From the NCBI GenBank assembly GCA_914767715.1, contig OU612073.1, forward strand, positions 5,766,001 through 5,830,000: 64,000 nt of DNA, in the 5' to 3' direction. The notes below the pieces were generated by a model, which saw nothing but the letters and a program-made list of their open reading frames with translations, was not told the origin of the DNA and did no database searches. The DNA comes from Membranipora membranacea. Its lineage: Eukaryota; Bryozoa; Gymnolaemata; Cheilostomatida; Membraniporidae. Below are positions 1,221 through 47,126 of the stretch, in pieces (positions within the stretch are counted from its first letter, which is position 1; the number at the start of each line of letters is the position of its first letter). Position numbers and translations under genes: made by a program.

Positions 1221-4200
1221 AGCGAGTTGTGACTTCCACTTTTTGAGATACTGTTCATTTCTCATTTTCAGCGCCGGGTTTCTACTCCAGTTTTCTTTTG
1301 ATGTATTAAGTTCCTGAACAAAGACAGATGCCGAGATGACATGGAATATATCATACAAACTGCTTAAGTTGAATAAGTGAAATTAAAAAAAAACTGGCTG
1401 TTGTTGCTATCTGGAAAAAGCACATGGCAATACCAGTATTCACGGAATAACAACTTTCCGGTCATATGCCAAGCATGTAGGACGTGGGCAATACTTCCAA
1501 AAATATAAAGTATAGCTATGTATTTGCGATGAAAGATAACCCATGCGCAGTGTCCACATCAGACAATGTGGGAGCTACATAAAACTTTGTGTTAGGGCTT
1601 GAGAGATTTAATGGGTTTAGAAAATATGGTGAACATGAACATTTCAATGATTTTCTTGTGTAGGATTTTACAGAGCCATGCAAGTACTCACCTTGATTAG
1701 ATTGGTGAGCTCTCTAATAGCCCTAATTCTCCGACTGTATTTTCTAGTGTTTGGTACGATAGACAGACCAAGTGTCCTCAAATCAAAGAAGAAACATTCC
1801 GTTGGGAACTTAGGCTCTGTCCACTGCACTGTACCATCTATTTCTACAATATGTGATTTTATGTTCTTTTCAGGCAATTTCATAGTCTGCTTTCGTTTGC
1901 CATTTTTTCCGCTGCACAGCTATGAGCTAAAACTTACTGATATAACATCATGTCACAAGTTTTTATTGAGCTAACAATTATGGACCAAAATATACGGATC
2001 CATTCATTGCATCCATTTGGTATGATTGACCAGAGGAGTAGTATGGGTGTCAAATGAATGCATACATATCATAGACTTGGTAATGACAGATCAATCCTAA
2101 ATTATCAAAGGTTTTGTCATTGATTCTACTGCGGCCTGACATCGAGATTACACTATGAGGATTTGTATCTCTGATGGCTCAAGTCAATTAAACCCAAGTA
2201 TCTGAAGTTTCCACACCATTTTTTATAAACATTTACTCCTGGGTGAGACACCTGATTACGTCTGATGGTACTCAAGTTACATGTATGTATGTATATATAT
2301 ACTTTTATTGTCAGCAACAATTAAGTATGTGACTTAACTCATGCTCTATTGATCAGATATATACATGCAATAGCGTATCAGTAAGCATAATGGCAGTCGC
2401 TGTCGCCTTACCGATTTTCTTGATCCATTCCTCAGCCTCTGGATCGGTAAACTTCAGCCTCGCTGTATCATTCATTTTTAGCTTCCTGTTTGGATGGAAT
2501 GGGTAATATCCATCAATCTACAACAGACCCAGAGCATATTTTATTCATTAACAACAAGTACAAACTGTTAAGCATGGAGTTGGTCGTACAAAAACTGCAC
2601 ATTTATACTGTTAGTACTTCAAGTAAGCAAGCCACATTCCATGTACACATGAATTACTCATGATGGAAGGGCAATTGTTCCATAAAAAGTGAATGGATGA
2701 GTGAAAAATGAATCAAGTCCCAAGCAAACACCAGGATGGAGGTTTCAGTTCCAAGAGTTTGATTTTGTTCTCTTCAGAACTCAACTCACCTTATCCACAG
2801 GAATTTTGTCGATGCTCAGCTCATGTAGACAATAAAGAAGGTTTAGCATGAATCCATCGCCTGCTACTTTCTCTTCCTCAGTCTGAATCTGTGACCGTCT
2901 CGTATTGGCTTCAAGAAACCGAGCTAGTAACTCAACCATACTGTTTCGTGTCTCTTTATATTTCAGCAACGTCAGTATAACCTCGCACATCTGAAGCTGT
3001 AAATAATCCCATCAATAAGAATAAGAAGTTGTCTTCTGATTGATGTTAAGGGGATAACTCCTTGTAATAGAAGCATCCTTAGTTTTCTTTGCGCTTATTG
3101 TTGTCAAAAGTTCAATCTTTGACTCAAGTTAAGGTTGACAAATAAGTCACAACGCCCGATTCTCTAGTACCGGTCATAAGCAAACTACTAAAGAATATTG
3201 GAAAAACAACTCAGAATTGACCAAATTGGAGAATAAACTCAAAATAGCAGACAAATAGATATTTCAATTAATTAAACAAAAAATAAAAACAATGTGTACC
3301 ATACTAAACTTACTCTGGCAAGTTTGAGTTTACTCCTGAGCATGGCATTAGTATCAGTGATATACCTCATATCCTGTATTTCCGAACTAAAGTATTTATC
3401 TACCACCTCAGTCTTCAATAATACAGTCAGAGCAGAATAAGCGATACAGCCAGCTTTGATATAAACAATGGGCTGTCTATTGACATACATGTTTATGACT
3501 GTCAAACCAAGCTTTGAGTTCGTGTTCTCTGGATCGAAAAATGATCAAGAATAGACATGGCGTAACTAAAATAATATACTCCAGTCAACTTGAGTTGAAA
3601 TGAGTCAAGTCAAGTCAAGTCAAGTCAGCAGAAGTCAAGTCAGGTCCATTCAACTCAAGACCAGTCTACTCAATTCCAGTCCACTCAAGTAAAAACAAGA
3701 CAAGTCAATTTAAGTCAACTCAACTCAAGGGGGACAACATTGAAGAGGATAGAGCATCCGAGGTCATATGGATGTACTCACAGTATCTTCAGCGAAAGTA
3801 GACAGACTACAGAAAGCACCAAGATAAGACAGTGTCTGAATCTCAACTCCGGCTGCATCCTTAGTCAGCGATTCTGGATTCCAATTAGGCAAACTCACCA
3901 CCTGTAAGGTGTAAACTTGACGTTGAAATAACTAAATACACCCATCATAAATTGCACATGATGTTTGCTCCTATGTTTTTTTCTCTGGTAACATTAAGCG
4001 CCTTCATGCAATGAGTTATTTGAGAATGAGACCAAAGGGGTCAATGTCATAATATGATTCACTTAACTTTCCCATTCTGATAAATCAAGTCAACAATTTC
4101 TTACCAGGTCAGCAAAAGGCTGTTTATTAGTGGATGTATCTTTGATTTGACACAACTCCTTCAGTATATTGAGAGGCTGTAGATATTCTTCTGATACTAA

Positions 4201-7200
4201 GCTGGTCTTCAGAGAAATGGCCCTTAATCCCATCAACACAGGAGTAAATACCTACATGTACATACAAAGAGGAGTAAATACCTCCATAAAGATACCAATC
4301 TTTAAATATCGGGCATTGCTTCTTAGTATTATGCCAATCATAGAAGCACAGGCATGCGCAAAGGAGGTCAAGGTTGGTTCAAGGATGAAATCATCTGGAT
4401 TATATTGCATGGTGATTGTGATGGGTAGATTATCCATGACATTGCTTGGTAATTCCTAACATATTCCAACTAAAAAGTCAGAATTAATCGTTTCGAAAAA
4501 AACCTATGTAATGGAATGACACATATTATTTTATATGTTTCATGTAAATTGCCAGGGATTTATCATATTCATGTATACTGATCTCATTTGCGACAAAAAG
4601 CGTTGAGCAGAGTTCTTCTTCATATGTGAAAGCAGCCAGACAAAACTCTAGAGGAGTTTAAATAATTTGAAGAAATCGGTCATTGATATGCCACTTTGGT
4701 GAAGCTGAAGTTGTTGTATTTACCTCAGATAAAAGCTGTGATGATTCGCTGGAGGTAACAGAAGTGATGTCACAAAGTAGATCCCATGAGAAGTTTCTCT
4801 CTATAAGAAGTCGGGCTAAGGCTGAACATGTGCTACAAGAGAGAGAGAGTAGAGTTGTGAGCAATGAGTTATTATATACTCTATGCTGAGAGCAGACAAC
4901 TTCTGCATGATCATAATATCACGGAAACCAGAATAATGCAGCAAGCATATCTTAATATTTGGTGAAGATTCTATTCATGAAATCAGCTGTTATGATTTTT
5001 GTATACCTTGAAATCAGTCAGCTTCATGTTATAGGCACCTGTCAAAAATTCTTTTGTTTACTTAGCATTAGGACCAATCCTTTACAGTCTTTTCCCCTCT
5101 ACTGTTCCCCTCTACTGGTCAGGATGACAGGACTTGGGGTAGTCTTACCTGGATGGTGGATTATTAAGTACAGAGATGGTTCCCTGTAGCAGGAGGAGGG
5201 TGATATGGATAGTCTGAGCACGAACCTCCGCTGATACAGTATCTGGTGTAAAGTTAGTGTATTTCTACAAAAGAAAACGCAAACTATTAATAACTGGACT
5301 GTTACATTGGAAGAAAAACTTGCGATCATTCCAGTCTGGTTACTAGTCGAATATCTGTGTTATATTTAGAGTTACCCGGGAACCGAACCTCAGATCAGGT
5401 AGAATGGTACGAATTGAAAGCCTCAACTTCACAACTCAATGAAAAAGGCTAGCTGAGCAACAAACTCACCTTTCCTGACAATAGCCTAAAACTTTTCACA
5501 CAGCACAATATGTGCTGTGACCTCATAGAAATGTATAAAGCTGAAAGTGAAAGTCAGTCACAGCAACTAACTCTGTGGGCTGTGAAATTCTAAACCAATC
5601 AGATTCACTTTTTTGCAGATGATTTCTCAGAATCATCTTGTTCAAGATGAGGTAAAAATCCCCCACTCCTCTGTCTCTGACACACTCAACTGATGGTGAT
5701 TGTTTAAACTAATTAACATATAGCAGCGTTGCCCTCCTTGCTTTACCAAGCTGCCACCACACAATATTCTAAATAACAAATGAGAATAAAAAAACACATA
5801 CTTTTGAGGTGTTGTTGGTGGATTTCAATGCCCTTGTGTAACATTCCGATAAATGTAGTAAAACCTCTCTGCTATTCTCTGCTTTACTTATTTTATACAT
5901 CGTAATCTCAAATAGTAACTGATTGATCAATTCCACCATCTCCAGTTCACCTTCTACAAACATACGGGGATATAACTAAGCGGGGATGCTTATATATATA
6001 TTTATATATACAAGCTATGCTCATATACTCTAAAATCTAAATATAACTATGATATGGAGTCAGCAATGGTTAAATTGCATTCTTTATCTTGTTTAGGTAT
6101 GTTGTGTTATTTATTACTACAACTCCTGTTTTCCCACACATATGAATAAGGAACTAGCGTACAATTAATGGATTTAACACATCCCCATTATTCATTATCT
6201 ACTGACTAGGGAATTGCCATACTTGAGGCGAATTTATCATACTACCTTGACTTTGACCATACTTTATCACACATTTGATGCACAAAGTACAAAACCTAAA
6301 CTCACAATTATTATAATTAAGGCATCCTGACCAGAGGACGATCTCAGCATGGTCCTCATTCATTTATAATTGTAGATAATAACATCTATAATCCACACAG
6401 CACCCTGCTACCTGCTCAATTTTTCATAACGATGGTGTGAAATTGCAACTTGACTCACTAGGTTCAGAACTGTCAAGAATGTCTTGACACCCAGGTATAT
6501 TGATGGGTACATTTAAACTTAGATAGTGACAGAATAGGGTTTTTGGTATCATTCTAGAGTTCTCAGTCTAAATATTAGTATTCTAAATTAGAATGAGAAC
6601 TCTAAATAATAACCCTATTCTGTCACAATCACTTTAGGTAAATTTGAATGAATGAAGGGAAAAACCGTACCTTGGTTTTTACAGGATTCCATTGTCTCTG
6701 TGAGATTTGGAAGCATGATGCCACCCTTGATCATGTTGACTTTTAGTATGGATGACAATGAGTTGATGATCATTGTGTTGATCTGTAAAAGAATACAACA
6801 AAACTGGTCTAGCAAGTTTGCATTAAAGGGCAACCAAGGTTTCAAACAACTTCTCATTGATGGCCATTGATTAATAGCAGATTGCACCTTCTGCATGGGG
6901 AAAAAGACAAAATATAATTCGGATGATTATTTAGCCAGAATTCTTGTGAAACATTTCTTCTATCAGGTACTCCAACTCAGCTAAAAGAGAATACCACATA
7001 GCAGTTTCCTGTTCCTGTTATTATTTAGCCTGTGCTCTATAATTATTACAGCAAAGTCTTGGAACCTCCCCTAAACTGAGGTGTTACCCAGCTTAGAGTC
7101 AGCAACTACTTTGAGTTTTGCATCGCGTAATGCACAAAGCTGATGCTGCCTAGCACATTATTTGCTACCCATTAATGCATTGCTGCGAAACCTTGGTTGC

Positions 7201-8369
7201 CCGTTAAAAAGACGAAAGAGACTAGGTGATTTCACAGAGGTAAATATTGAATGTGAAAATGTACACAAATCTGTGTTTTAGCACTACATCAAACAACAAG
7301 TTTCTTGACACAGTTCTACAAAACGTATCACACTCATAACTAAAATCTTTCGACCAATAGCCTCAGCTCCTAGTTGTATTTCATGACAAACCTGCTCAGT
7401 ATTGAGTGTGACAGGAGGGGGCGGGGTAGATTTAGCTTTAGGACTTCCTGTAACACCACCAAGCGACTGCGCTTTGCTTTTCATTGTTGACTTGACTGGA
7501 GTCTTGCTTGGCGATGCTGCCGGAGCAGACTTTGTTGATGACTGGCTTTGTTGATTTTCATTATCAGGGTCAACATCCATGGACTGTGAGGAGCTAGCAG
7601 AGCCATCTAAAACAAGACAGCAATATGAGAGCGTGTCACAAAATACCAATAGGAATGGAACGTATACCTCTTGATTTGTCATAAGGGGTGGACAGGGGTG
7701 CGGGCGGCGTTCTAGGTCAGCTTTAGCATACTTCCCGGCCTTCTCGGTGGAGTCATGCGGTAGGGGAGGAAAACTTGAGCCGGGCAGCCTTCACACTAGC
7801 CCGTAACTGCTATCTGGTTCTCCAATGCCTTTATCAACCATATGTATTTTTCTTAGTAGACACAGTAGTATATCAATTTAGTGCAATAATAGCTGGACAA
7901 AAACCAAGTCCAATGTAGTTGGACCAAGTTTAGATTATGCTAGATTGGGCAGTTTACCGCAATGAAAGGCTCACTGCTACGAGCATTCAGCGCCTAGCAA
8001 AACCTCTGCCTATCTCATACCTGGGGTTTGCAAGCTTCCTTGACTAGATGTGCTGCCTCTTTTAGCTGCTGTTGTTTCACCGCCTCCTAACCGAGCGATT
8101 CGCTTCTTACGAATCTAGGGGAGAAACGAAACAGCATATACATTGGTTTCAATTTACAATACATCCTACTAGTTTGTTATAAACGCATTCGGTTTAGTGA
8201 TTGATGAGGGATTGAAGCTATATCATCTTCTCAGCAGGCAGTGTGAGACTAAATCGAGATGGTATCAATGCGTTGCCCAACATAAAACAGACAGATATAT
8301 TATTTGTGGGCAAGGTGCTCTAGTTGCAAACTGTGCTAAACAAACCTCTTCTGTAGTTTGCGCGTCCAT
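1221..8369 (-). CDS. UBE4B: Ubiquitin conjugation factor E4 B (Ufd2 family), 5' part
   Basis: An E4 ubiquitin ligase of the Ufd2 family extends polyubiquitin chains on pre-ubiquitylated substrates through a C-terminal U-box. The exons, in transcript order, are 8346-8369, 8021-8114, 7392-7606, 6671-6782, 5802-5953, 5149-5264, 4724-4832, 4282-4455, 4105-4176, 3782-3901, 3314-3412, 2790-2996, 2412-2517, 1692-1843 and 1221-1313, with every junction phase matching. They encode about 615 residues. The start is fixed by an in-frame TAA directly before the ATG at 8369. Recognisable UBE4B blocks are the basic N-terminus IRKKRIARLGGG, then LSYLGAFCSLSTFAED, VVDKYFS, GDGFMLNLL and EPKFPTECFF. Residues 40-110 are a Ser/Pro/Gln-rich low-complexity stretch, as in animal UBE4B. 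The core end and the U-box must lie left of position 1. Two introns begin with the uncommon donor GTTTGT. Confidence 0.93.
2134..2385. mobile_element. MITE family 1, copy 1 (in a UBE4B intron)
   Basis: The left end carries CTGACATCGAGA followed by TTTGTATCTCTGAT, and the right end reads GATCAGATATATACATGC. The ends are roughly inverted copies. The same ends and interior (CTGATGGTACTCAAG) recur near 10120-10445, 49205-49425 and 50705-50925. It is about 250 bp, without coding capacity, in the intron between UBE4B exons 2412-2517 and 1692-1843. Confidence 0.6.
3580..3730. repeat. Degenerate AAGTC/ACTCA pentamer repeat
   Basis: A run of AAGTC units starts at about 3603 and decays into variants (CAACTCAAG, CAGTCCACTC) over about 150 bp. 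It lies in a UBE4B intron and is most simply a decayed microsatellite. Confidence 0.7.
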
Positions 8370-23600: not shown

Positions 23601-25021
23601 ACATCAAAGCCAGCAATATGACTGCCTAGCAAGATAGTGTCAGATAAAATGTGAGATTTTTATGGAAATTGACATAATGGTCGTAGAATTTTGGATGAAA
23701 CACATGTGTGAACATAACCTGTCCTGACAAGGTTGGTCTGGGGAACTAAAGTATCCTAGTGGATTGATCACCATTTTATGCAGGCGTGTACTTAATAACC
23801 AACATCATTACTTTAATGACAATCTTAGCTGGGGAAATTCGCGCTTGCTAAAATTAACACATCCCAAAAATTGATTAATATGAGTTGCATCTGGGTTTTA
23901 GTATCTAGCTGGGTTTGTTTTTTACTTGACCATGGCCTGTTTTTATTTCAGATATCATGATAGTCTGAGATATGGGGAGTCAACTGAGGAAAAGAAAGCC
24001 ATGGAGCAGCCTAGTTCAACATATATGGATATCTCCATTAACCAGCAAAAAAAGAATGACTTGGAAGGGAAAGATCCGCCAATGAGTAATAAGGAGCCCA
24101 GAAGAAAGACGAGGCACCATAATCGAAGACATAGAAGAAACCCTCCACCATCATGCAATATAATCAGCAATTATATAAAGTAAGGAATTAATCATTTTAA
24201 ATTAACTTTTCAGCCGAATCAGATTGTAAATGAACGCGATATAGCCTATACATACATCAGCATACATATTTTTGTGCATTATTGTGATAAACAACACAGA
24301 GAAGATGATTTTCAGCACTATTCTATATCTACATCCTATATATATATATACTCTTGTTTTACTCAATGGACGTAAAGTTTGAGTATTTTAGTGATATTCA
24401 AAGTGACTTGAACAAACATAAGTTGTCTAATGATTACGGAACGGAGAACAACTACAAAGTTTGATTGAGAAATACAGTTTTTTGTTGATATATTTCCAGC
24501 AAAAAAGGGAAAGTGAAACATCCAGGATGCTAGATAAACCTCTTTGTTTTGTATCCAGCTCAACAACTTGCTCATAGCAAGTATTTCTTTATCACCACTT
24601 GCACTTATGGCATCTACAATATATTAATAATATAATAATAATATAACCATTTTCATATTATAGTATGACACTTTATGCGGGGCATATGCAAGAGGATTAT
24701 CCGGGCGAAGAGATCATCTTAAATTTCAATCCCTCAGCCATTCCGTTCAACTACTGCAGCGGCTACTGCGCAAACGTGCAGATATTCTCTTCTGCAAGCT
24801 CTCCCGGCAGTTCTGGGCTTGACGGGCCCCTCAGAGATCAAACTTTTCATGATCAGTATTGGCTAGCCGTTATCAAATTCAGGGCACTGAATTTGTTACC
24901 ATCAGGCCCAGTTGCCAGCTGTATGGGTTATAATTATAGTTTTGTGCAGATTACTTCATCGACAACAGCCAGCCATCACCAAGAAATAATCTGGTATCCA
25001 ACAACATGTGCATGTGTGTAG
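20694..25021 (+). CDS. Secreted TGF-beta superfamily-like ligand, copy A
   Basis: The six exons are 20694-20757, 21017-21196, 21430-21625, 22242-22415, 23952-24179 and 24664-25021. All phases match, giving 399 residues, the usual length of TGF-beta precursors. A hydrophobic signal peptide (MKVIQSILILTLAYIGMVIK) is followed by a prodomain of about 230 residues, then a basic furin-type site RRHRR at the end of exon 5. The mature chain of about 130 residues has PSC, FNYCSGYC, VASCMGY and a C-terminal CACV. That is the Cys, CxGxC, single Cys, CxC order of the TGF-beta cystine knot. The usual Cys-Cys pair is Ser-Cys, so the interchain cysteine is missing. Spacing from the first Cys to CxGxC (39) is longer than typical. 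A glycosylation site NMT follows exon 5. The family call rests on motif order. The receptor and role are unknown. Confidence 0.85.
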
Positions 25022-30700: not shown

Positions 30701-32540
30701 CGGATGAATTGAAGATAATATTCCTAGAAGCTTGACATGAATGATATCATAGCTACTGAAAGTACTTGTTTATTTGTCTATTATATGTACCAGGTCCAAT
30801 TCTCTATATCTGCCTGCTAAAAATATACATATTAAAAACGAAAAAAAACACAGGGGACATTTTCTTAATATTTGAAATGTCGTCAAAGCACATTTATAAA
30901 TATTTGAAATGTCGTTAAGGCACATTTATAAATATTAGATGTCCTTAACGGCTGAAAGGTTCTTTGTGACTTCCAATAATGATATAAATACACTCCTTGA
31001 TCTAGGAATTCCCATGCGGTCAGTGTGAGGATTTCCCAGGTGGATTACCAATTCTGTTAGGGGACAGGGAACACTGTCATTTTTTACCCTAGAAGGCTAT
31101 GATAACTGTTGCATGAAATCAAAATGTTATCAACAGTCATTTAAATGTCAAATGTGTAGATAAGCTGTTCTATAATTATTGATTTTGTGGGTTCATAGAT
31201 GTCATGAAAAATCTTATTTGGATTGAACATCGTTAACGTAAAAGAAAATTATATTTTCCCCTCCTTTGCATAAGAAGTATTATCTTGTGAAAAAAGATGT
31301 AGTGTTGCGCATGATAGGCATGTCAATAAGTAGAGTTGAGTTAATGATTCAGATGCAGTCAGCGAATGCAGAACCTACGATTCCCTTGCCAGAGATACTC
31401 TAGATTCATGAGCATTTATTTTTTTCAGATATCATGATAGTCTGAGATTTGGGGAGTTAACTGAGGAACAAAATGCCTTGCAGCAGACTAGTTCAAGAGA
31501 AATGGAAATCTCCGTTAACCAGCAAAAAAAGAATGACTTAGAAGGGAGAGATCATCCGAGAAGTAATAAGGAGACCGGAAGAAAGATGAGGCACCATAAA
31601 CGAAGACATAGACGAAACCCTCCACCATCTTGTAACATAATTAGCAATTATATCAAGTAAGGAATTAATCTTTTATCTTTTGAAATTAACTTTTCAGCCA
31701 AATCAGAGTGGAAATGAAAGTGATATATACATACATCATCATACATATTTTTGTGCATTATTGTCATAAACAACACAGAGAAGATGTTTTTGAGCAATAT
31801 CCTATATCTACATCCTACCCATATACTCTATTTTACACATTGAAGGTAAAGTTTGAGTATTTTAGTGATATTCAAAGTGACTTGAACAAACATAAGTTGT
31901 CTACTGATTACTGAATGGAGAACAGCTACAAAGGTTGTTTGAAATATATACAGTCTTTTGTTGATAATTTTCAAGGACAAAAGGGAAAGTGGGACATCAA
32001 GGATGCTAGTTAAATTACTTTTTTGCATCTAGTTCAGCAACTCCCTCATAGCAAGTATTTCTTTATCATCACTTGCACTTATGACATCTAGGCCATTGTC
32101 ATCCCCATGAATACAAAATTGGATGCTTCAGACAAGAGACTAATAATGTAACCATATTCCTTTTTAGTCGGACACTTTATGCGGGGCATATGCAAGAGGA
32201 TTATCCGGGAGAGGAGATACTAATCTTACCAATGTCACACAATCCCTCAGCTATTCCTTTTAACTACTGCAGCGGTTACTGCGCAAACGTGCAGATATTC
32301 TCTTCGGCAAACTCTCCTGGGAATTCTGGGCTAGACGGGCCCCTCAGAGATCAAACTTCACATGATCAGTATTGGCTAGCAGTTATCAAGTTCAGGGCAC
32401 TGAATTTGTTACCATCAGGCCCAGTTGCCAGCTGTATGGGTTACAATTATACTTTCAATTCAGTGCATATTTATTCGAAGACGACAGACAGCCTTCACCA
32501 AGAAACAATTTGTTATCCAACAATATGTGCATGTGTATAG
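27705..32540 (+). CDS. Secreted TGF-beta superfamily-like ligand, copy B
   Basis: The exons are 27705-27768, 28029-28208, 28458-28653, 29217-29390, 31429-31656 and 32168-32540. The first five have exactly the lengths of copy A, and the whole encodes 404 residues. The signal peptide is identical to A. The furin site is RRHRR after a basic run. The mature chain shares PSCNII, FNYCSGYC, VASCMGY and the terminal CACV. Two changes stand out. An insertion lengthens the stretch before CxGxC (LPMSH after EEILI), and a seventh cysteine appears in TICYP a few residues before the final CxC. The N-linked site is NRT instead of NMT. The gene is intact, with no stop or splice loss, so both copies look functional. 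As in A, the interchain Cys before VASC is absent. Confidence 0.85.
29734..30211. mobile_element. Foldback element family 2, copy 1 (intron 4 of ligand B)
   Basis: The ends GAGTTGTCCTCTCTCCAGTT and AACTGGAGAGAGGACAACTC are inverted copies, each followed inward by 'ggtacttttaaccca' and 'gagggttatcttgaaa.ccgctta'. The arms are about 105 bp around a central unique stretch. A second copy is at 63272-63730. It is missing from the corresponding intron of ligand A. Confidence 0.85.
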
Positions 32541-34563: not shown

Positions 34564-37143
34564 TTAAAAGGGATAATTACCTGTCAGCCATTGAATCCTT
34601 GAGATCACATCTCCTTCTATTTCATCCTGTGGTTGATTCTGAGTTTGATTGCTCAGATCGCTTGGGCGGAGGTACAGCTTTCGTAGACCAGTGAAAGTAC
34701 ATACACTCTTAGGCATTTGTGCTATAAAAGCTCTGTGGCGTTCTGAGGGAGGACAGGTTAGCATGATTTCCTCTGACCTCTCAGCACTGTAACGGCTCAC
34801 AGCCTCTCTGACCTGTCAAAAATATATTCCAGAGAAACCAAAATTGGCTGAAACTGAATCAATCAACCAGTCAACAGGTCAACCGGTTGGTCGGTCGGTT
34901 GGTCGGACGGTCGGTCGGTCAATCAATCAATCTATTTGTTTTCTCACTGCCAACAGAACTTTCTCTTTTTATAGCTCCCTTGGTTTATTAATATTCACTG
35001 CAGCATTTCAACAAAATTCTGAAACATTTTCTTTACGTGCTCGTCATATAATGGTTGCAAAAAATTATACTATATTTACTGCCTAAAGCAAACAAGTTTG
35101 GACACTAAACTTATTAACATATTGTTCCTTCAATATGGGTTTGGCGTTACACATGACATGTTCATTCTTTTTTGGGGATGGTGAGCGGTTAGCGCACTTG
35201 CTATTCACTGCCAGGCGATTGGTGCCGCAGGAGTTTTGGGTTTGAATCCCGTTGGGGGAGCTATCAAGGTTGATTTTTCCAGCCCCAGCACCCTCGGGTG
35301 TATACCTCTTCAGGGGCCTTTCACAGAGGTCAGAGGTGAAAGGGACAAACTGTTTACACTTACCCTCTTCATACACTTCTGGAATATTTAGCATTTGTTT
35401 TACTTACCACATTGCTCATAGTCTCCACATCATACTGGCTAGCCATTTTAGAAAATGTCAAGACCACAGCTCTTATGAAAGGTGAACCTAGAACCGGACT
35501 TCTTGGAGATGCAAAACCTACAAATCAGAGAAATCTACTCCTCATTTTTTACCGCTTTTGTCGTGCTGGTATTGGTTATGCAACAATCCAATATCAGGTC
35601 GATTTCAACACAATTCACGCAGTAATGCAAAATTAAATTGAAACTCATGACATAAAACAATACAATAGTAAGTAAAAACTGTTTTCTACATTGAATTATT
35701 TACACAAAGGTTATTTATGATCTATGTTTGTACTGGTTCTGAAGTTGAGTGATTTCTGATAGTAACCTAAAACTCACTGTCAAAACTGGACTGCATTATC
35801 AAAAGGTCTGCCACTGAGATCTTTACGTTCTGTGGGTCAAGGTCAAATTCATCCGGCTGTTGTGCCTGCTGATGATACGATTGGACAGCTGCTTGTGCTG
35901 TCGCTTCAGCTGACTGATGGCCTATTTCTGTATTATCTCTGTTGGTGGTGCTGCCTGTTGTGGGTAACAGATGTCCTGGAACACCATCAAGCATCATCTC
36001 AAGCTTCTCTACATACAAGAAATATTTGTTTCGAAAATAAGGATCTCTTCGTCTTTGTGACTGATTACAAGGATTATCAAACTAAATAAATGATTTACAA
36101 TGGAGAATAAACAATTTAAAAGGGGAACGATTTGGGGAGTCAGGCAACAGGTCACTATAAAATTATTTTCAAGCTATTCATGTCAAACTTAGTAAGCTTT
36201 TTTACTAACTTGAACATTCAAGGCCTTCATTTCTACATATGTGTTAAATATAGACTGTAATCTGCCCAGCATCCCTTACCTCCAGAGCATGCCTGAATGA
36301 TTATGAGCTTTGGTTTGCCTTTCATCGCCGGGAAATTACGAGCAGAGAGCAGGTCATATATATCAGTTAGTTTTATACGGGTGTAATCACATCCTAGTAT
36401 GCTCCCATCGTTTCCATGGCTTGTCAGAACTAGGACAAACATGCCAAAGCCCTCATGTATCGATCTGCCTGTGTACTCATCTACTAGCTGTGTTTCTTTG
36501 TGAATAGCATCAACCATATCCTAAAAAGTGTTGTCACCTGTGTTAGGTAGCTGTTATTGTATTTGTGCATTCAGTTTAAAAGAAGCAAAGGCAAGCTGTC
36601 AATCACTAATCAAAATAATAATGTAACTTGCATTCATGTAACAATTTTGGGGAAAAATACAAAACAAATACAAGATTTGTATTTTCAGATTGTCTCCCTC
36701 CACAATGACAGACACTGAATGATTGGCCAGGTTGAATTTAATGATTGTTGCACTCTTAAGTTTCTGGTAATATACAACTCACATTCAGGGATAGGAGTTG
36801 GAGAAAACTATCTTACTACTGGTACTTACTCTTCGCAATCCTGTCAAAGACAGTTCAAACTCGGATTGAAGAGATAAAACATTCCATATCTCGATGAAGC
36901 ATATACGAATTGAAGCTAAATCAGGTTACAAATTCAAACTGATTGCATTCTCCATACCTTAGCAGTGTAGTTTTTGTGCTCTCCAGCTGTGATGAAATTC
37001 AATCGGTCCAACATTTGTCTCATGTTGGTATAATCATGTTCAGATCCACGTCTCCAGTGGTCATTTCCTGTTCGCTGGTCAGTCACGAGGTACTTGTTTG
37101 ATATTATCAAAGCTCTGCCAAGAGGCTCAGTCATCTTGTATTC
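34564..37143 (-). other. Caspase module of the fusion gene
   Basis: Five exons encode a full peptidase C14A domain. The p20 begins with YKMTEPLGRALIISN, then RRGSEHD with the Arg that holds the P1 aspartate. It continues with FVLVLTSHGNDG, whose catalytic His codon is at 36416-36418, and IIIQACSG, whose catalytic Cys codon is at 36287-36289. The intersubunit linker of about 75 residues is Gln/Ala-rich and contains DEFD at 35842-35853, a plausible self-cleavage site. The p10 has VADLLIMQSS, ASPRSPVLGSPFIRA and QMPKSVCTFTGLRKLYL, matching the caspase S1-S4 strand pattern and C-terminus. The canonical pentapeptide QACRG is QACSG, and SWR is SPR, while the key Arg is kept. About 40 residues extend past the normal caspase end. 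No CARD or DED precedes it; the Roc-COR and LRR take that place. Confidence 0.87.
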
Positions 37144-40100
37144 CTACAATTAAATCAAAGTGAGATGACAGAAGTTTGATAGAAACCTCATTCAATTGTA
37201 TCAGTTTTGAAAAAATAAAGTCAAATAATTTACTCAAATGATGTAGTATAGTTGTACCCTACCCAGACTACTGGTTTTGACCTTTCATTACAAGCAATAT
37301 CCATGGTTCATGATAGAAAACCACGTTCAGTGACCCAAAGGAGATCTTGCTGAGGTTGAATAATTAGCATTGGGGCTTCAATGGTGTATGGTAATCGCCA
37401 AAAATAAAATGGATAGATATAGTGTTATGTTAGTTTTTAGCAATAAAGATAAAATCCTGTGAGGAGTTGATGTACCTTATCCAGGGCAGACGTCGGTGCA
37501 GTAACCAGGCTCTCTTGACTAGGAGACAGACTGATAACAGCAGGAAAATGCTTCATCATAGACACTATCTCTTCTACATAGTCCATCTCTGACTTGGCAG
37601 TCTCTTCTGGTACTCCGGCTCCAGGTTGTGTAACAGAAGCTGGAATGCTGGAAACTGAGATAGATCAAAGTTAAAATTTTTATTGTAGTTCGTCTTACAT
37701 CAGGAAAAATGAAAGATAAAAGGCTGTTGTGATATAGTCTTACTCTTATCAAAAAATTGGGCAGGCTTATCATGCCTTCTTTTGTAAAAAGAAATGCTGA
37801 TTATCCATGTAAGTAAATGTTGCGAATGCAAAATTGATATTGGTTTCTCCTTTGATTCAACCATCTACTCAAAACATTAACCCTATATATTACAGTTACC
37901 GGTTTGAGAACTTGCAGAGACCCCAACTGCTATTTCTTTAGGCAAACCAGACATACTCTCAGCAAGCTCTGCTACATAGAGCTTCACCTTCTTTAATTCC
38001 TCTCCATTCAGTGAGTCACCTGTTATAACAAATGAATTTCAGTTGTTATGGCCCTGTCTAGAGCAAACTCCGAGAACCTTAGCTGGTACTCAGACCTGGT
38101 CCCTAATACCAAACTGACATGCCAGACAACAGAGCTGATAGGCAACCTTATCGCAAATGAAGGACAATAAATTTATAAATCAAATACAAATTTTCCTGTC
38201 TCTACAAATGCTAAATTTTGTTCCAAAATATATTTATTCAGACCTTCTTTATAGGTAACAGTACTCACATGGGTAGCGTAGTGGCTTTAGAACTGTAAGA
38301 GGGCCTCCATTTGTTCTGTCATTGCAGCATGGGACCGGCTCTGCACCTCTGAATTCACTAATCCACTCAGATTCATTCTCTGCTGAGTCATTCTCATTAG
38401 GAATTATCATCCAGTCTGGGTCTAGATCAACATCAGGATTCGGGAGCCTCAAGAGCAAACAATGGGAGCAGAAGAACTTGCAGATAGGGCGAGCCCCCTC
38501 CCATTTTCTCAGAGAGCATCTCAATATGTGATGAATGACTTTTTTCATCAACCTCCAAGAGGCATCCAACTCCTCTACTGGGGTGTCCACTTGAACTGTG
38601 AGTTCAGAGATTTCACTGTTGTGGGTGACACGACTGATTGAGGCACCGTGATGGACCACTGCACCATTACTAGCTGCTCGGATCCTGAACTCATGGCTTG
38701 CAAAGAGATTCAAGAAAGCAACTGTCAACAGATGGTAAACATAGGGAGGCGGGGGGAGGCCTACAAAGAGAATGCCAACTCGGAGAGGAAGGAGACATTC
38801 ACTGACCATGGTTTCTTCAATGATATCTGCTGAGATCGCAGGGATGATATAGGTATCCCTTGGTGCTGCGCTTATTGGGCCACAAACCAGGTGAAAAGTC
38901 TTAAGAAGAGCTATGGCAGTTTGAACAGGGAATTCTCTATCGCTGAACGCAGTGTAGAGTAGCACCTCATCCAACACTCCAGACCTCAGGAACTTGTTGA
39001 CTAGTTCTCTGTATTTCTCCTTGGTCATCCATTTTTCTTTGAAATGAAATGGTTGGAATTCATCTATCCTTTTCTGCCAGATCTCATTACCCTTGTGATG
39101 AAATAAAGCTGATATTGCGCCTGTTACTAGATCTATCCTGTGGAAGACATAATCACAAAGCCTGTCATCCCGCTCAAACCAAAGAACCCTGCCAACATCA
39201 TGCTTGAATCGCAGTATCACCGAGTCTGTATCATCTGGGAATGCATCCAAAATAGCTTGCAGAAGAACGTAAGGCAACTGGCTATGTAGGTCAAAAAACG
39301 ACTCTATTTCATTCCATATATCAGGTATGACTTGTTCGTGGGACTTGCTATGAGACTCGAGTTGTCGTAAGAGACAATGAATGTTTTCTGTTTCAGCTAA
39401 ATCATTGCTGAAAACATGTATGTCCTCACTTTTGAAGAGTGGTCGGTCTGTGTTTGAGAAATGCTCTATCTTACAGAATCTGCTTGAGTTTCTTGAGTAT
39501 CGTGCCTCTTCCTCCACCATGGTCAAACGTAAAGATTCAGATGTAGACAGCAGCTGTTCCTTACACTCAGTGAACTCTGCTTTTGACAAGCAGTCAATAT
39601 GGGTGAGCACCAGGATAGGTGGTCCAAGTTTAGGACAAGATATGTAGAAATGGGACAAATGATTCATAATCATCAGTTTTGAAGCCTGTGCGTTCCCTGC
39701 TGACGTGCGCATATCCATGAAATCTTTCATGCTGACAACGATGACAGGAATGTAACTATTCCGAATGGTGAACTGACGAGCCAGTTGATATGCGTCATTG
39801 CCGCCGACGTCAAAGCATCTCAGTTTTGAGTTGTTGAGTGAGATGTCCTTTACCTCGAATACTTCAGTTGTGTCATCGGCCGGTGCATCCTTATCACGAT
39901 ACATCAAGATCCTTTTTTTGCTCTTTAAGCTTTCTACCAGACTTGTCTTTCCAGCCATACTGCTTCCAATAACAGCAATCGAGATGACAGGAACTATGGC
40001 CGACCTTCCAGTTTGGCATTCTATATCAGTATAGTATTTCTTGATGGCGTGGAGTCCCTGTGCACAAACTTGACTAGGTGGTTTTTCCAATGCATGACAG

Positions 40101-43100
40101 CTTAGACAATGTAACTGAGTCAGGCGGCGAAGGGTGAGTATTCCTCTACCAAGTTCCTTAATGGTAGTCGAGTCTGTGAGCACCAAGCGCTCTAGTCTTT
40201 CCATCTGAAGAATCACACTCGGCAAAGATTTGAATTTGTTCCGGCTCCCTCCAATATTTAAGTCCACCAATTTCTCAAGAGCAGCGAGTCTACAAACAGA
40301 TATAGATTTCTCACATGAATATATATCAACCATCTTTTGGATTCATGCAAATGCAGTCAAAATGGAATAAAGTAAATATGAGGTGCAAGTCACCAGGCCT
40401 CTGGACAGTGAAGAAGCATTTGAGTGTGAAGGTGTGAATAATAATTGTGATTCTTCTTTTAGTTTCTCAAGAAGAGCTCTTGGGGTTCACAAGTCTATTA
40501 GAGCAAAGATTAGGAGTTCTTTGCACTGTAAGATTTGGTAAACATTGTAAGGTATTATTTTATGTCAACAGAGAAGGTGTAAGCTATATCAGTCCTGATA
40601 CCTTTCTGGCAGATCATCCAGCTCACAGTTTTCTACATTGAGGCGCTCCAACATTGAAAGGTTACATATCACTAGCGGAAGCTTCTGTAGTGGGTTGCCA
40701 TCCAGCTTCAGCCCTTTAAGTTGCTTCAGATTTGTGATACTGAAAGAGAAAAGCGTATTATGATTTGATTAGGGCTTTGATTCTAAAGTGGATAAAAAAC
40801 CCCAAGACCTGCTTTTACCTCTTTGAATAAACCTACCCGGAGAACATGAGAACAGAAAAACTCTCTTTGTCTTGGCAATCAAACTTAAGACATGACAAAT
40901 TTATTAGGTTGGATAGAAATGAGGACTTGTCCTCCCTTTGCCAACTAAGGCAAGTGACCTTTAAACTTGACCTATTTTGCAAATATGGCACTGATAGACG
41001 ATAAGGAGGTGAACAATACTCTGGCAGTGGAAAGCATGAATTCTGCAAAAATTATATAATTCATGTTTAGATATTTCCAACGCTGGAATAAAAGTAAAAT
41101 GGGATCCTTGTGAAGTTTATTAGCTGGGGGACACTACTCTGATCTGATCCATTTCAATGATGTTATAAAGTGAAGAATCGGAATATAAAACAACATTCCA
41201 TCACTCTCATTTCTAGCTTCATGCTGCTGGGGTTAAATAATAATTTTTTGCTGTTATTCTTTGTGTTGGCTTACGAATCAAGCTTGCTTTGGATCTAGTT
41301 GAAAACCAATAAGGGATTCAAGTGCCTCCTTTTAGAGCCAGACCAGGCATCAGGTTAGGTCTCATAAATATCACCTATGGAGAGTTATTTATAGTTGTAT
41401 TTATTCCACTGATATGGAACAAATGGGTCAGAGAGCACTATATATATACCTCAGTGATTTATTCCCATGTATAATTCTATCCTGAGGTAGTAAACCAGTT
41501 GAAGAATGTTATAGTCTAGAGGTTTTACCTGTCTGGGAGTTGATGGAGGTGGCAGCAACTCAGGGTCAGTGACATCAGCGTTTGTAGTTTGCATACTTGT
41601 TCCGGTAAACCGTAAGTTGAAAAACTATTGTTCCTCAAACTGAAGCGTTCAAGATTTGTCAGCCCCTCTAAGCTAAAATGAGTTGGAATAGTCCAAGTGG
41701 AGGTTCAATTGTCATATTTTGAGACTTGCTGCGCCAACTCTGCTCGTTGCGTTGCATTTCATTGCAAGATCAGAGAACAATCGTAAAACAGGGCAAGGAG
41801 TAATATTGCCACAAAATTCAGGAAAGCATTGATACTAACACAACCAACAGTCTATGGCCTAGGATTAGTTTAACAGATCCTTATTGAGGCGCTTTGGCCA
41901 TCCCATATTCCCAATTTCAAAGCGGATCTGGATTTGAAGTTTGATGACCATATTTAGGGGGCCTACTAGCCAATGTATTGGCTCTGATTGGATGGGTGCC
42001 TACTACAGGCATGGACATTGCATAATACTCACTTGTCATAGTATTTCTTATTCTCAGGTTTATTCTGCAGTTTGCTGTAACCCAGGCCTAACTCCTTTAT
42101 CTGTGACAATCCCAGCAAAGCTGGAGGTAGCCCTGTAGAATAGTCGTTTCCCCCGGCACATAACCCTGTTAGACCTTCGAGTTCTGACAACTGGGAAAAC
42201 CCGGAGTCATGTCTGAAAAAGATTAAAATCATCGACAACAAAATAATAGTTGGCCTTTTTATAGTTTCTACAGTTAACCCTGAATAAACCATCAATTGTA
42301 AGACAAGGTTACAAGCCCCACTGTCAGTTGCTAAGTATAATTTTTGCCAACTGTGTGATAAACAACGCATCAGGTTCAGAGTATATTAATTTAGACTCCA
42401 TGAATGTGAAAGATTATGTATAAAAACACCACTTAATGTATAACAAAAAATGTTAATTCCTAATCGATGCAGCCATGAAAGTTGGTATATAGCGTTCTCA
42501 TCTTATAGTTCATGCAGTGCTGGTCAAATTAAGCAGGACACTCCATGCAAAACCGGTTTATATTCACTGTGTTTCCATGTTAATTTCGAGGTCGATCTGA
42601 GGCTAATTTCGAGGGTCTTCGAGCTATTGAAATGGCTCCGAGCTCGACCTGAGCTCCAAGGTTCAGCTAGCACATATTAGCTCACACCTTGGTCGAGCGG
42701 TTAGCAACAAAGGCTCTGACGCTCTGATGGCAGATATGGTTGATGTAATTTTTTCTCAGCTCGATCATGGAAATGGCTACATATTTTGAGATCGAGCCAA
42801 AAGGTGACTACTCAGCTCCATCTAGGCCGACCTAGAAATTAACATGGAAACACAGTGGTTGAAGTATACCACAGAGGTTTGTAAAGATTGTGTTGATAAA
42901 CGATGAAGTTTCACTACTTTGACTTACTGGCCATCATCTAGACAACGATGTATTTTCAGTATCTTGAGCTTCTTGAGTTTCTTGATGCAGGTTGGGATGC
43001 GGTAAAATCTGTTTCCTGACAAGTTCAGTGCCTCCAGATTTGTAAGGTGGACAGATAGGCTGTTACACAAAACAGAATTTTGTGCACACATTGACGACAG

Positions 43101-46100
43101 ACAGAATTAAGTACCGAAAAACACACAAAACACATACACATTCGCATAGCAGAAGGCATTGAGAGGAAAAATTTTGGGAACACGGAAATGTTTTTCATAA
43201 ACTTACAAGAGAAAGCATTATACCTTCATGTGAAGTGTGAACATAATTCAAGAAATATCTGTGGCTGCTGTATTCTTGTATGTGGAAATATTAACATGGC
43301 AAGACTTACCAGTCAGGCAGATCTTGAAGCCCACAGTAGTTCAAGTTCAAGTTGGTGAGAGATTTGAGTTTGTACAGAACTTTTGGTACACCATTTCTTA
43401 GAAATTTATCAAAAGCCTAGTTTCTTCAATTGCATTAGAACAGAACATGATGCAGAACCCAACCACAGCCAGCTCTTAATGGCGTCCTTAACGACCGCCT
43501 ACGGCCGCAATTGAAAGATACTCCGACAATTTGTGTTGTTTGCAGTTTTCCGGTTTTATTCAGACACAACATACATGATCCTAGCAGCAAGCTGCCAGGC
43601 AAAATCCAAAATGTGACTACTCCATTCAAAATGCCGCTAGCAACTCATCTTTATAAAAAATGCTACCAGCTTATAAAATTTACAAAGTAGGCTACAACTT
43701 TACATTACAGAAAGATCTTGCAGGATTTAATTAATGATGCTCATTCAAGGATGGTACATGACCTAGACATGACACTCAAAACAGGAGATTGAACTTCCTG
43801 ATTAAACATGACGATAAATAACATAAATGATGATAATAGGCAATTAGGAAGCTATCAAGTATCACAATCCATCATACATAGCAAAGCAGAGATTTAATCA
43901 AAGCACACTGCACAGCAACAATGAACAACCAACCGCCAGTGGTGGATAATGTGGCATACAGGTACAGGGTTACCTGTATGTCACACAATCGCCATCCTGA
44001 ACGCCATTAAGGGCTTGCCTTGAACTCAACCATCCCCAACAGAGCTGAACTTAGACCAACACTCAACTAATAGCAAAAATAAGAATTATGAGCTCATTCA
44101 GCACATCTCTGGATATCGAATATGTCGAATAACCTACTACCAAGAAGGTGATAGCACTGCCCCACCGCTCATCGATTATGAAGGAAAATGACATATGCCA
44201 AAAAGTGAGACAAAAACTTTCAACCCATTTTCGCTATGGATTGGAATGGGACGCCAACTTGACAACGAATTTTGGCTTACGCAACAAGAGGATTAATATA
44301 GCTATCACTGTGTCGTGGGAGTTGCCAAGGACAAAGACAAAAAAAACGGAATTCATATAGCTACCAGTGCCTTGTGGGGGTTTCCATAGAAAAAACAGGA
44401 TTGATATAGCTATCGCTGCCTTGCAGTGGTTGCTATAGAAATATGACATGCACTCCTCTGAATGCGTTGGCCATCCGCACCAACTATCAGCATGATGGCA
44501 CACTGAAGTTCTTAAATATCAGGGATTGATCAGTGTTAGAGGCATCGGATTCGGGAATCACAAGGTCCTGGGTTCGAGCCCCATATGCTACACTGTTTGT
44601 CTAGTCTATTACTACATGATTTGGCTGTTGTGAGCCATTCACCCTAGCTGACCAGGAAAGTTAAAAGCGTACCATGACAAGCAGTGGTACTTTTGTAAGG
44701 GATAATGAAGCGGAGCTCTTACTTATTTATATTTTTTAATTCATCAATCAATCCTCCCAGCCGGCAAGGTTTAGCCAGCAACCTATTGTAGAGGTTGCCA
44801 ATGGGCAGCTTTATTGTTAGCCAATATCCTCTGACATCACCTGTCTTTGATAGGTATGCCAGAGGGAGCCAGATATCCCCATTTCCCAGCAACAGATATA
44901 ATTGGTTGTAGATGCTTCTGCTTGTATACTCTATTTTCTTGCATTTGGCGGTTGCAGAAATAACTTTTCTGGACTGACAACACATAGCCAACACTCAAAT
45001 ATTAATGTATTTACCATCTATTAGTATGGCTCCAGCATGAGAACAGTTTACTCCCCATTGTTTTCGACAGGGCTCTCAACCACTCAGGTTTAGCCCGAGT
45101 TACTCAGATTTTTGGGTTCAACTCAGGCTACTCAGGGGATTTTAGAATGTAAGCTAAAAACTCAGATTTTGCTCGTTGGCAGAGATGAATAATATATAGA
45201 CAATGCTAAAAGTTGCCTTACAATAATTTATGCCATATTATTAATGAATGATCAGGTATTAGATTCTAGTTGTGATAAGCTATGTCAATAATACTGCACT
45301 GCCTATACTAATTATGCCTCTCACTGCACTCACTGTAATAATACTCTCACTGCACTGCCTATTCAAGTCATTTCTAAATCAATGATCAAACAATGATTTC
45401 TAAGCGTTATAGAATATCGACACTTTACACCCCAACTGAGATGTATAATAAAAATAACATCAAACTTTTGCGGGAGAATAATGTGTGTTTTGTTTTGGGT
45501 ATTTGATTTCATTTGTGATAAGCTATGCTCTTAATATTGAACTGCCAATGCCAGTGATTTGCGAAATAGATTATTATGTCTAAATATAGAAGTTGGAATT
45601 TTAGACATGTTAAAAAAGTGATTTTGCGTGTGAACCAGATAAATCCAGGCAATGATTTCAATAGCATCACATTACATTAATTATGCCTTTCTACCCTGGC
45701 GCCTTTAAATCAGTATTTTACAAACATCATATTTTAACATCATTGGAATTCATTTTCACCTGTGGCGACGGCCTTGGTTAGTCCATATGAATTGGTTCAT
45801 CTGGATCAAATCTAAAATTATTTACGATTTTATGTTTACAAGAAGTGCTCTAGGTTTTTATTGATTTTCTCGCTATCACAAACATGAAATGTTGCGAGAA
45901 AAGGATGCATATACTTTGTCAATAAAGGAACTTGCTACTAGAGTATGGAACTTGTATTTGAGGGCATCGCTCTAGAAAATTGTGTATGATGTGATCAAGG
46001 AGTTGTCTTTAACAATTAAATTAAAAACTTTCCTTAGTAATTTCTTGTCTATGGTACATATGCTCGTGTGCAAAACAGGCAGACAATAAATACATCAAGA

Positions 46101-47126
46101 GGGAAACTACACAACTTTTGAACATCATGAAAGCTAATGGCTTTGAACTTAGATGCAACATTTTTTTAACAACATACATTCTTTGACTTGCTTTGCCAGC
46201 TATTCTTTGCACATAATCTTCAAATCTCAGGCGTTTCACCCGACAATATTTCGGTGCCATCTCAGACGCTTCTCGGCCTATTGGCTAAGATCAAAGTGTC
46301 ATGGCCAATGGCTGATTAGTGCCTGTTTCAGTTTCTGGCAGCTTGCTGCACACTCACGATTAGGAGGTCCACCATGGCCTCACCTCTAGGATGCATTCTA
46401 GTTTACTAGGATGTATCACACTCTCAGTACGAGGACTCCGGGCAACTTGCGTCCCTCTTTAGGGGCAGCCCACCCTCTGTTTTGTTATAAACAAGGCCAT
46501 CTCAGACGTTCCCTCAGCTGTATATGTTCAGGGGGTTTTACACCTTTAAAATACCACTATGCGACATGCTAATATTAAAACTCAGGTTTCGAATCATCCC
46601 AGGTTGAGAGCCCTGCTTATCCAGAGAATAAAAAATTGAAGTGGAGCTCAGCTCCACTTCAAGAAGGGTGTTTATAACCAAGTGGAGCTGAGCTCCACTT
46701 ACTCACGGTACAAAAGTACCACTGATGACAAGCCACATTGCGATAATCTTCATTTGTGATTGTCTCTCGAAAACAAAACCAATTTATATTCGGCGGACAG
46801 GCAAACACTCACATGTTAACTATCTCTTCCAACTCTCCCTCAGAAGGTCTTTTAATCCTTAGATGTGTTATATCAGGTGCCCACAATCTGATCAGCTCCA
46901 TACAGACAGGGCTAGTCACTTTCAGATGCGTTACCTTTTTTCCTGCTGTCTCAGCAAAGAGGTTTTCTTTGGAATAATAGCCCCACCAACCGAGCATATA
47001 GGTCCAGTCCCACTGCTCATTCTGCCTGTTAGGCCTATCAGGGTGTGGGTATGGCATGTGATCATGCCTAAATGCTAATTGATATCTTAACTGAGTGAAT
47101 TCCTTTTCTGTTTGTGCTGCCATCAT
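34564..47126 (-). CDS. LRR-Roc-COR protein fused to a caspase
   Basis: In transcript order the exons are 46813-47126, 44723-44968, 43310-43396, 42928-43059, 42033-42212, 41529-41672, 40837-41042, 40602-40739, 38279-40290, 37900-38019, 37476-37654, 36958-37143, 36280-36520, 35778-36008, 35408-35517 and 34564-34812, about 1,590 residues. The N-terminus (about 105 residues) is unrecognised. Leucine-rich repeats run to about residue 580 (such as LTNLEALNLSGNRF). The Roc GTPase has the P-loop GSSMAGKTS (about 590), DVGG (about 642) and THID (about 711). COR follows, then a linker of about 110 residues. The caspase p20 has SHG and QACSG, a Gln-rich linker has DEFD, and p10 has SPRSP and LRKLYLRP. 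All phases agree from exon 8 to the stop, including the COR-to-linker junction, which argues for one protein. Junction 41529/41042 is out of phase, so an unseen exon or frame error lies there. The first two exons are the least certain. Confidence 0.82.
35175..35345 (+). mobile_element. tRNA-derived SINE in a caspase intron
   Basis: The head GATGGTGAGCGGTTAGCGCA (A-box) and GGGTTTGAATCCC (B-box) form a tRNA-like Pol III promoter, followed by a body ending near 'cagaggtcagaggtgaaagg'. It lies in the intron between caspase exons 35408-35517 and 34564-34812, antisense to the gene. Confidence 0.78.
38279..40290 (-). other. Roc-COR exon of the fusion gene
   Basis: A single 2,012-bp exon carries the last LRRs, the entire Roc GTPase and the COR domain. 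Roc signatures are GSSMAGKTS (39944-39967 region), FDVGGND and LTHID. The last is the THxD form of the guanine-specificity loop usual in Roco proteins. COR begins about VIPDIWNEIESFF and includes HSQLPYVLLQAI and a C-terminal half with WRLMKKVIHHILR. The exon ends at CCAT|GTGAGT. Reading through this donor would add only six residues before a stop, so an unspliced form would be a plain LRR-Roc-COR protein. Confidence 0.9.
42565..42857. mobile_element. MITE with 30-bp TIRs
   Basis: CACTGTGTTTCCATGTTAAT at the left end and its complement at the right end bound 293 bp. The arms agree over about 30 bp with one mismatch. It sits in an LRR intron of the Roco-caspase gene. The interior is rich in 'gagctcgacc' motifs. 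No ORF is seen. Confidence 0.88.
43397..44520. other. Intronic DNA of the Roco-caspase gene, no exon seen
   Basis: This is part of the intron between exons 44723-44968 and 43310-43396. Near-repeats 'gatatagctatc(a/g)ctg' occur at about 44295, 44350 and 44400. Short ORFs here lack support. Confidence 0.5.
44525..44710 (+). mobile_element. tRNA-like SINE
   Basis: A perfect B-box GGTTCGAGCCCC (about 44573) lies about 40 bp after a degenerate A-box (GTTAGAGGCATCGG), followed by a non-tRNA body of about 110 bp. It is intronic, antisense to the Roco-caspase gene, and ends just before the donor of exon 44723-44968. Confidence 0.55.
45068..46615. mobile_element. 1.5-kb TIR element, second copy of the 'agggctctcaacc' family
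   Basis: The left end CAGGGCTCTCAACCACTCAG is mirrored by GGTTGAGAGCCCTG at the right end. The ends match the element at 10042-10829. The interior has no intact transposase and contains the U2-headed retroposon (46256-46508). It lies in the intron between the first two exons of the Roco-caspase gene. Confidence 0.72.
46256..46508 (+). mobile_element. U2 snRNA-headed retroposon (SINE-like) with 13-bp target duplication
   Basis: The element begins CTTCTCGGCCTATTGGCTAA followed by GATCAAAGTGT, which matches the first 30-odd bases of U2 snRNA with one substitution and one insertion. After that it diverges from U2. It is flanked by identical GCCATCTCAGACG at 46256-46268 and 46496-46508. The element proper is thus about 46269-46495 (227 bp), with the 3' end TTTTGTTATAAACAAG. 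Identical long flanks imply target-primed reverse transcription of an RNA with a U2 5' end. It lacks the U2 branch-site-pairing and Sm regions, so it is not a working snRNA gene. Confidence 0.72.
46639..46701. repeat. Paired 'agtggagctcagctccact' palindromes
   Basis: Two near-perfect 20-bp palindromes about 20 bp apart are inverted copies of one another (central c versus g). They lie about 110 bp from the first coding exon of the Roco-caspase gene, just inside its intron 1. Confidence 0.8.

Follow-up and report, generated by a model that had tools for sequence, protein, structure and literature searches.

The locus and its gene model

The 64,000-nucleotide stretch of the Membranipora membranacea genome analysed here (contig OU612073.1, positions 5,766,001 to 5,830,000 of the forward strand; hereafter the window, in whose own numbering positions are given) carries, on its minus strand, a gene that appears to join a Roco protein to a caspase. 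The model extends from 47126 to 34001 and comprises 16 exons in one frame, encoding 1509 amino acids followed by a stop codon, and every intron is of the GT-AG type. In the joined protein, leucine-rich repeats (LRRs) are followed by a Roc domain, a COR-like region, a linker of about 100 amino acids and a caspase. An initial annotation had described Roco and caspase exons on the same strand, spliced in phase, as a single gene, and the exons are indeed present in that arrangement. The single-gene claim is strongly supported by comparison within the host genome, on which it rests, and on that evidence the locus can, with little doubt, be read as one gene encoding an LRR-Roc-COR-linker-caspase protein.

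Exon 1 (47126-46813) starts with the ATG at 47126 and encodes an N-terminal region without a Pfam domain; the choice of start methionine is a guess, and an exon may have been missed in the 3.4-kb intron that separates exons 1 and 2. The LRRs are encoded by exons 2 to 7, lying within 43396-40602 (43396-43310, 43059-42928, 42212-42033, 41672-41529, 40944-40837 and 40739-40602), and by the beginning of exon 8, and the introns following exons 1 to 7 are all in phase 2. Exon 8 (40289-38269) carries the last LRRs, Roc and the COR-like region and ends at a phase-1 donor, T/GTGAGT. This phase had been correctly assigned earlier but the position had not; the exon ends at 38269, with the GT at 38268, and not at 38279. 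The intron that follows (38268-38020) is 249 bp long, not 259, and the stop codon encountered on reading through into it is a TAA at 38251-38249, where a TAG had been given; an AATAAA begins at 38238.

The two linker exons lie where the initial annotation placed them. The first, L1 (38019-37900), is in phase 1 at both ends, is kept in paralogs and has no start methionine before it, while the second, L2 (37654-37476), enters in phase 1, leaves in phase 0 and carries a conserved motif near VEEIVSMM. Both score as coding sequence, L1 at 0.27 bits per codon, a value that 2 of 307 stop-free segments of intron attain, and L2 at 0.21, attained by 2 of 79.

The caspase begins with two p20 exons, the first at 37143-36958 (EYKMTEPLGRALIISN, including R1151) and the second, at 36520-36280, bearing the catalytic residues His 1238, within TSHG, and Cys 1281, within QACSG. 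The p20/p10 interdomain linker and the start of p10 (36008-35778) carry conserved Asp residues at 1291 and 1341, and are followed by a p10 exon (35517-35408; SPRSPVLGSPFI, R1366), by exon 15 (34812-34581), where the caspase part ends, and by exon 16 (34107-34001), which encodes the C-terminus and the stop codon TAG and lies beyond 34564, the limit of the interval first annotated. Among the less secure parts of the model, exons 6 and 16 score slightly below zero for codon usage, and for exon 6 the 5' boundary was picked to preserve the frame. An Rfam search of the window yielded no match.

Domains and catalytic residues

When the joined protein was scanned against Pfam, LRR_14 (E 8.4e-24) and Peptidase_C14 (96.5 bits, cut-off 21.4, E 2.5e-27) were readily detected, the latter assigning the C-terminal part to the caspases. 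The two central domains fared less well, since Roc reached 25.1 bits in the joined protein and 27.3 bits on exon 8 alone (cut-off 27), and COR-A remained below its cut-off. Exon 8 contains the Roc motifs GSSMAGKTS (P-loop), DVGG and THID, and the protein thus has the Roc domain with P-loop and THxD by which the Roco family is recognised. Among the 16 family members of set A4, Roc was matched at E ≤0.01 in all and COR-A in seven. The second stretch of the structure 3dpu aligned with the COR-like region at 7.0 bits only.

The catalytic His1238 and Cys1281 are intact, together with R1151, Q1279 and R1366, which we take to be the Arg, Gln and Arg of the Asp pocket, and all 23 Roco-linked loci compared retain the catalytic pair. 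Asp 1291 and 1341, flanking the linker between p20 and p10, are invariant in the four relatives aligned. By sequence, the nearest solved structures are those of CED-3 and then caspases 1 and 3. The encoded enzyme is very probably active and Asp-specific. The linker matched no Pfam family, and Pfam detected no NACHT, NB-ARC or death fold either in it or in the joined protein as a whole. A protein search with residues 500-1509 returned 6149 candidates, none at E ≤0.001.

The COR-linker junction across paralogs

The host genome (339 Mb in 18 contigs), marked as that of an animal by 47 matches to wnt exons, yielded at least 145 caspase matches in a six-frame Pfam search (515 candidates, 140 scored). 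Twenty caspase places, picked mostly for an exon pattern like that of the window, were inspected in 9-kb stretches, and in 17 of them the caspase is preceded on its own strand by a Roc-COR exon. With eight short loci, two of them repeated, and five more included, such an exon precedes the caspase in 25 of 31 distinct places; the remaining six comprise L025; L027 and L028, for which about 6 kb of sequence lay upstream; and L001, L002 and L007, with flanks of only 1.5 kb.

In all 25 of these paralogs, which show 27-46% identity to the window, the Roc-COR exon ends identically, at P-C, with T/GT in phase 1. The donors comprise 11 GTGAGT, eight GTAAGT, four GTTAGT, one GTATGT and one GTGAGC, and the read-through tails beyond them vary in both length and sequence. 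Three relatives on other contigs, P0005-P0007, have the same COR-exon ending, with donor status deduced from the residues. A one-off fusion or modelling accident was rejected in view of this recurrence. On the other side of the intron, all 23 loci compared (the window and 22 others) show a phase-1 acceptor where L1 opens, and in 19 of them no in-frame methionine lies between L1 and the preceding stop, so that L1 should be spliced from a coding exon upstream. Taken together, the invariant donor and the acceptor lacking a methionine of its own imply that even the first base of L1 belongs to coding sequence. L2 and then the p20 exon follow L1 in most loci (L003, L017, L018, L024 and L029 were given no L2 anchor), and in L016 and L030 L1 and L2 lie within a single open frame. 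Purifying constraint on the linker is evident in 17 of 22 comparisons, in which the synonymous proportion of differences (pS) exceeds the non-synonymous (pN).

The closest paralog among the matches listed, L035, is 76% identical in Roc-COR and has an L1 equal to that of the window in length, phases and donor. It lacks the intronic TAA and AATAAA of the window, and the COR-linker introns of the two can be aligned only over the first 23 bp. Ratios of non-synonymous to synonymous substitution rates (dN/dS) between the two are 0.28 for the COR tail and 0.22 and 0.13 for the p20 exons.

A genome-wide family

A search of the host genome with exon 8 gave at least 67 matches in at least 66 Roc-COR loci (248 candidates, 66 scored). 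Within 6 kb downstream, a caspase match is present for 45 of the 66 loci listed, including the window, invariably on the same strand (45 same, none opposite) and at a median gap of 1367 bases, while among the matches listed none of the 66 has one within 6 kb upstream. Five of the 21 unpaired loci were inspected: L035, L037 and L038 each have several caspase exons, L036 has the first p20 exon, and L034 is doubtful, which brings the tally to 49 of 66 loci with a caspase and one doubtful.

Pairwise distances in Roc-COR and p20 correlate over 20 loci (r 0.77, reached in none of 2000 permutations) and over 14 non-redundant loci (r 0.65, reached in four of 2000), L011, L021, L026 and L031-L038 having been left out. 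The Roco and caspase halves therefore co-diverge, and this, with the recurring junction and the paired loci, identifies the window gene as a member of a large family. No relatives were confirmed in viral or prokaryote contigs.

L034 (C1:30534687), with an open frame of 1634 amino acids, had been hoped to be an intronless copy and was rejected as such; its exon ends in PC and continues with CKSDKL and a stop. Downstream there is a weak caspase match (tblastn E 0.003) with SHG and QAC motifs discernible by eye, and the exon piece examined gave no match to PF00656. In the same locus (G000:C1:30531500-30538500, 7000-3065, minus strand) a long array of near-identical LRRs of about 23 amino acids precedes Roc-COR in frame, as if grown by recent repeat turnover. 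Two caspase exons within long open frames (672 and 710 amino acids) were also followed up, and in these COR and caspase never share a frame.

Transcript-like relatives and alternative explanations

Three sequences, P0001-P0003, resemble spliced transcripts of the source or a near species and we infer that they may be such. P0003 matches L022 at 92-99% over four exons and lacks the introns; for P0002 the match is to L004, at 75-100% depending on the piece, with L2 joined to p20; and P0001 is nearest to L037 (77-90%).

Several observations weigh against a single full-length product or against parts of the evidence presented above. None of P0001-P0003 reaches COR or spans the COR-L1 junction, and P0002 runs into the intron ahead of L2, so that caspase-only forms may exist. 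A methionine at 37134-37132, the fourth codon of the first p20 exon, recurs in several relatives ('M[ST]E..GRAL') and is a possible internal start for such a form. The 25 paralogs include many near-copies, and 20 loci reduce to 14 at 10% distance. The other five of the 22 linker comparisons, all between near-identical copies, show zero synonymous change, and three of them show one or two amino-acid changes. Against L035, dN/dS is high in L1 (0.54) and L2 (0.65), and, considered with the shared length and phases, this indicates that the linker is fast-evolving yet in frame. The Roc-COR frame is broken by a stop or frameshift in L011, L021 and L026; these are probably disabled copies of the kind that birth-and-death families accumulate. 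COR-A scores 19.7 bits in the window and 29.2 bits in P0005, both under the Pfam cut-off of 35.3, and an AlphaFold model of the Roc-COR exon, built from four sequences, had a mean pLDDT (predicted local distance difference test) of 42.1 and was not used.

Among the alternatives, that of one gene with two products survives best, though we regard it as rather less likely than a single receptor. A full-length receptor would then be modulated by caspase-only or Roco-only forms arising from an internal promoter or from intronic polyadenylation, consistent with the conserved p20 methionine, with the differing 5' ends of P0001-P0003 and with the AATAAA in the COR-linker intron. The short relatives may, however, be assembly fragments, being contigs of 1.3-1.9 kb, and an AATAAA is expected about 0.26 times in 249 bp, given the density of this motif in introns, 1.05 per kb. 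That expectation, together with the absence of the motif from L035, also led us to reject the AATAAA at 38238 as the true end of the gene.

We consider it unlikely that the same protein serves outside immunity, as a signalling protease in development, in self-recognition between individuals or in tissue turnover. Caspases have non-lethal roles besides killing, and the sequence names neither ligand nor output, but the large tandem expansion, the disabled copies and the variable LRR content resemble those of recognition families, a likeness that would suit allorecognition too.

The supposition of two adjacent, co-inherited genes that tandem duplication has kept together, one for LRR-Roc-COR and one for a caspase starting at the p20 methionine or in L1, could draw on P0001 starting with that conserved methionine, on the entry of P0002 into the intron and on the AATAAA directly past the read-through stop, but it is very improbable given that the phase-1 donor recurs in all 25 paralogs examined, that 19 of 23 loci have a phase-1 acceptor without its own methionine and that L035 lacks both stop and AATAAA.

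A proposed mode of action

The explanation that we favour, with reasonable confidence, is a receptor of about 1509 amino acids and LRR-Roc-COR-linker-caspase type, belonging to an expanded family and activated by proximity. The LRRs would bind a ligand or keep the protein off, and an event at the LRRs would alter the nucleotide state of Roc and the monomer/dimer balance of Roc-COR; COR-mediated dimers are described, in the available text, for bacterial Roco proteins and LRRK2 (PMC6337361). Dimerisation could pair two C-terminal caspase domains and activate them by induced proximity, with no CARD or DED adaptor, and cutting between p20 and p10, at the two conserved Asp residues, might then stabilise the active enzyme. 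The output would be cell death or another proteolytic immune response. That the protein acts as a proximity-activated immune or danger receptor seems to us only somewhat better supported than not.

Comparison with known systems

In the well-studied animal pathways of death and inflammation, sensors, adaptors and caspases are separate proteins. In NLR inflammasomes and in CED-4/Apaf-1 apoptosomes, a repeat-bearing nucleoside triphosphate (NTP) switch gathers separate caspases through death-fold adaptors. The window protein likewise ties an LRR-bearing NTP switch to a caspase, but its switch is a Roc GTPase and not a STAND ATPase, and its caspase lies in the same chain. The NLR-inflammasome-like logic proposed in the initial annotation is plausible, but the protein resembles an NLR inflammasome in outline and is not one, since neither NACHT nor a death fold was detected. 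With initiator caspases such as CED-3 it shares the caspase domain and the catalytic His and Cys, while LRR-Roc-COR replaces the CARD or DED prodomain.

The closest architectural parallel is bacterial. The portions available of Kaur et al. 2021 (PMC8195603) describe proteins of the LRR-AP-GTPase(Roc)-COR type with at least 24 C-terminal effectors, a caspase among them, and with 11 copies in one bacterium. The window protein resembles these in its N-terminal LRRs, Roc, COR (here a weak match), C-terminal effector and multicopy state, and differs, as far as that text extends, in that its family is animal and intron-rich, with dozens of copies, a single caspase type and a conserved two-exon linker. 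The initial annotation had known of no animal Roco with a C-terminal caspase, and the literature searched is consistent with this, although the architecture itself has been described in bacteria; our search, thin in its coverage of subscription journals and covering longer result sets by their top entries, turned up no animal Roco-caspase.

Animal Rocos include LRRK1/LRRK2, DAPK1 and the TIR- and death-domain Rocos of Aplysia (PMC6337361, PMC9334734). Like them, the window protein has a COR-like region after a Roc that bears P-loop and THxD, and it shares its LRRs with LRRK, whereas they carry kinase, death or TIR domains and the accessible sections of these two papers do not mention a caspase. 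Brown algal ROCO genes (Teng et al. 2024, PMC11378527), as portrayed in the parts available, are similar in combining LRR-ROC-COR with one LRR per exon and phase-2 introns; a peptidase domain, IPR009003, lies at the C-terminus in their group 3, and the word 'caspase' is absent from the main text available.

If the proposed reading is correct, a genome with dozens of genes that fuse sensor, switch and caspase directly would demonstrate the adaptor step to be dispensable, paralleling the bacterial LRR-Roc-COR-caspase proteins. The effect of Roc-COR nucleotide cycling on an attached effector would, moreover, be readable by a simple protease assay, which bears on LRRK2-type proteins.

A related caspase on another sensor, and neighbouring frames

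At L025 (G000:C2:34581266-34590266, 3009-8048, plus strand) an exon encoding an NHL propeller (22.2 bits, Pfam cut-off 20) and a transmembrane-like exon, its hydrophobic stretch judged by eye, are followed by an L2-like linker and a related caspase. The four exons join in phase at GT-AG introns and encode 461 amino acids without a stop. This would place the same caspase cassette on a different, probably transmembrane sensor. NHL loci of the L025 type number at least 124 in the host genome, many of them clustered on contig 8, and constitute another large receptor-like expansion; when the 124 were compared with the 145 caspase matches listed, L025 alone lay within 10 kb of one. Whether the genome holds a large repertoire of adaptor-free, single-chain inflammasomes, in which a phase-1 caspase cassette would be mounted on cytosolic LRR-Roc-COR and on the L025 NHL sensor and the LRRs would diversify through repeat turnover, recognition thereby acting directly on a caspase of the same molecule, we consider an evenly balanced question.

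Elsewhere in the window, two similar open frames on the plus strand, at 24647-25021 and 32085-32540, had no Pfam match and have common motifs such as PFNYCSGYCANVQIFSS. The next gene upstream, on the minus strand at about 51450-50345, is represented by two exon-like frames, also without a Pfam match, which by eye resemble the C-terminal part of an EF-hand (EFHD-like) protein.

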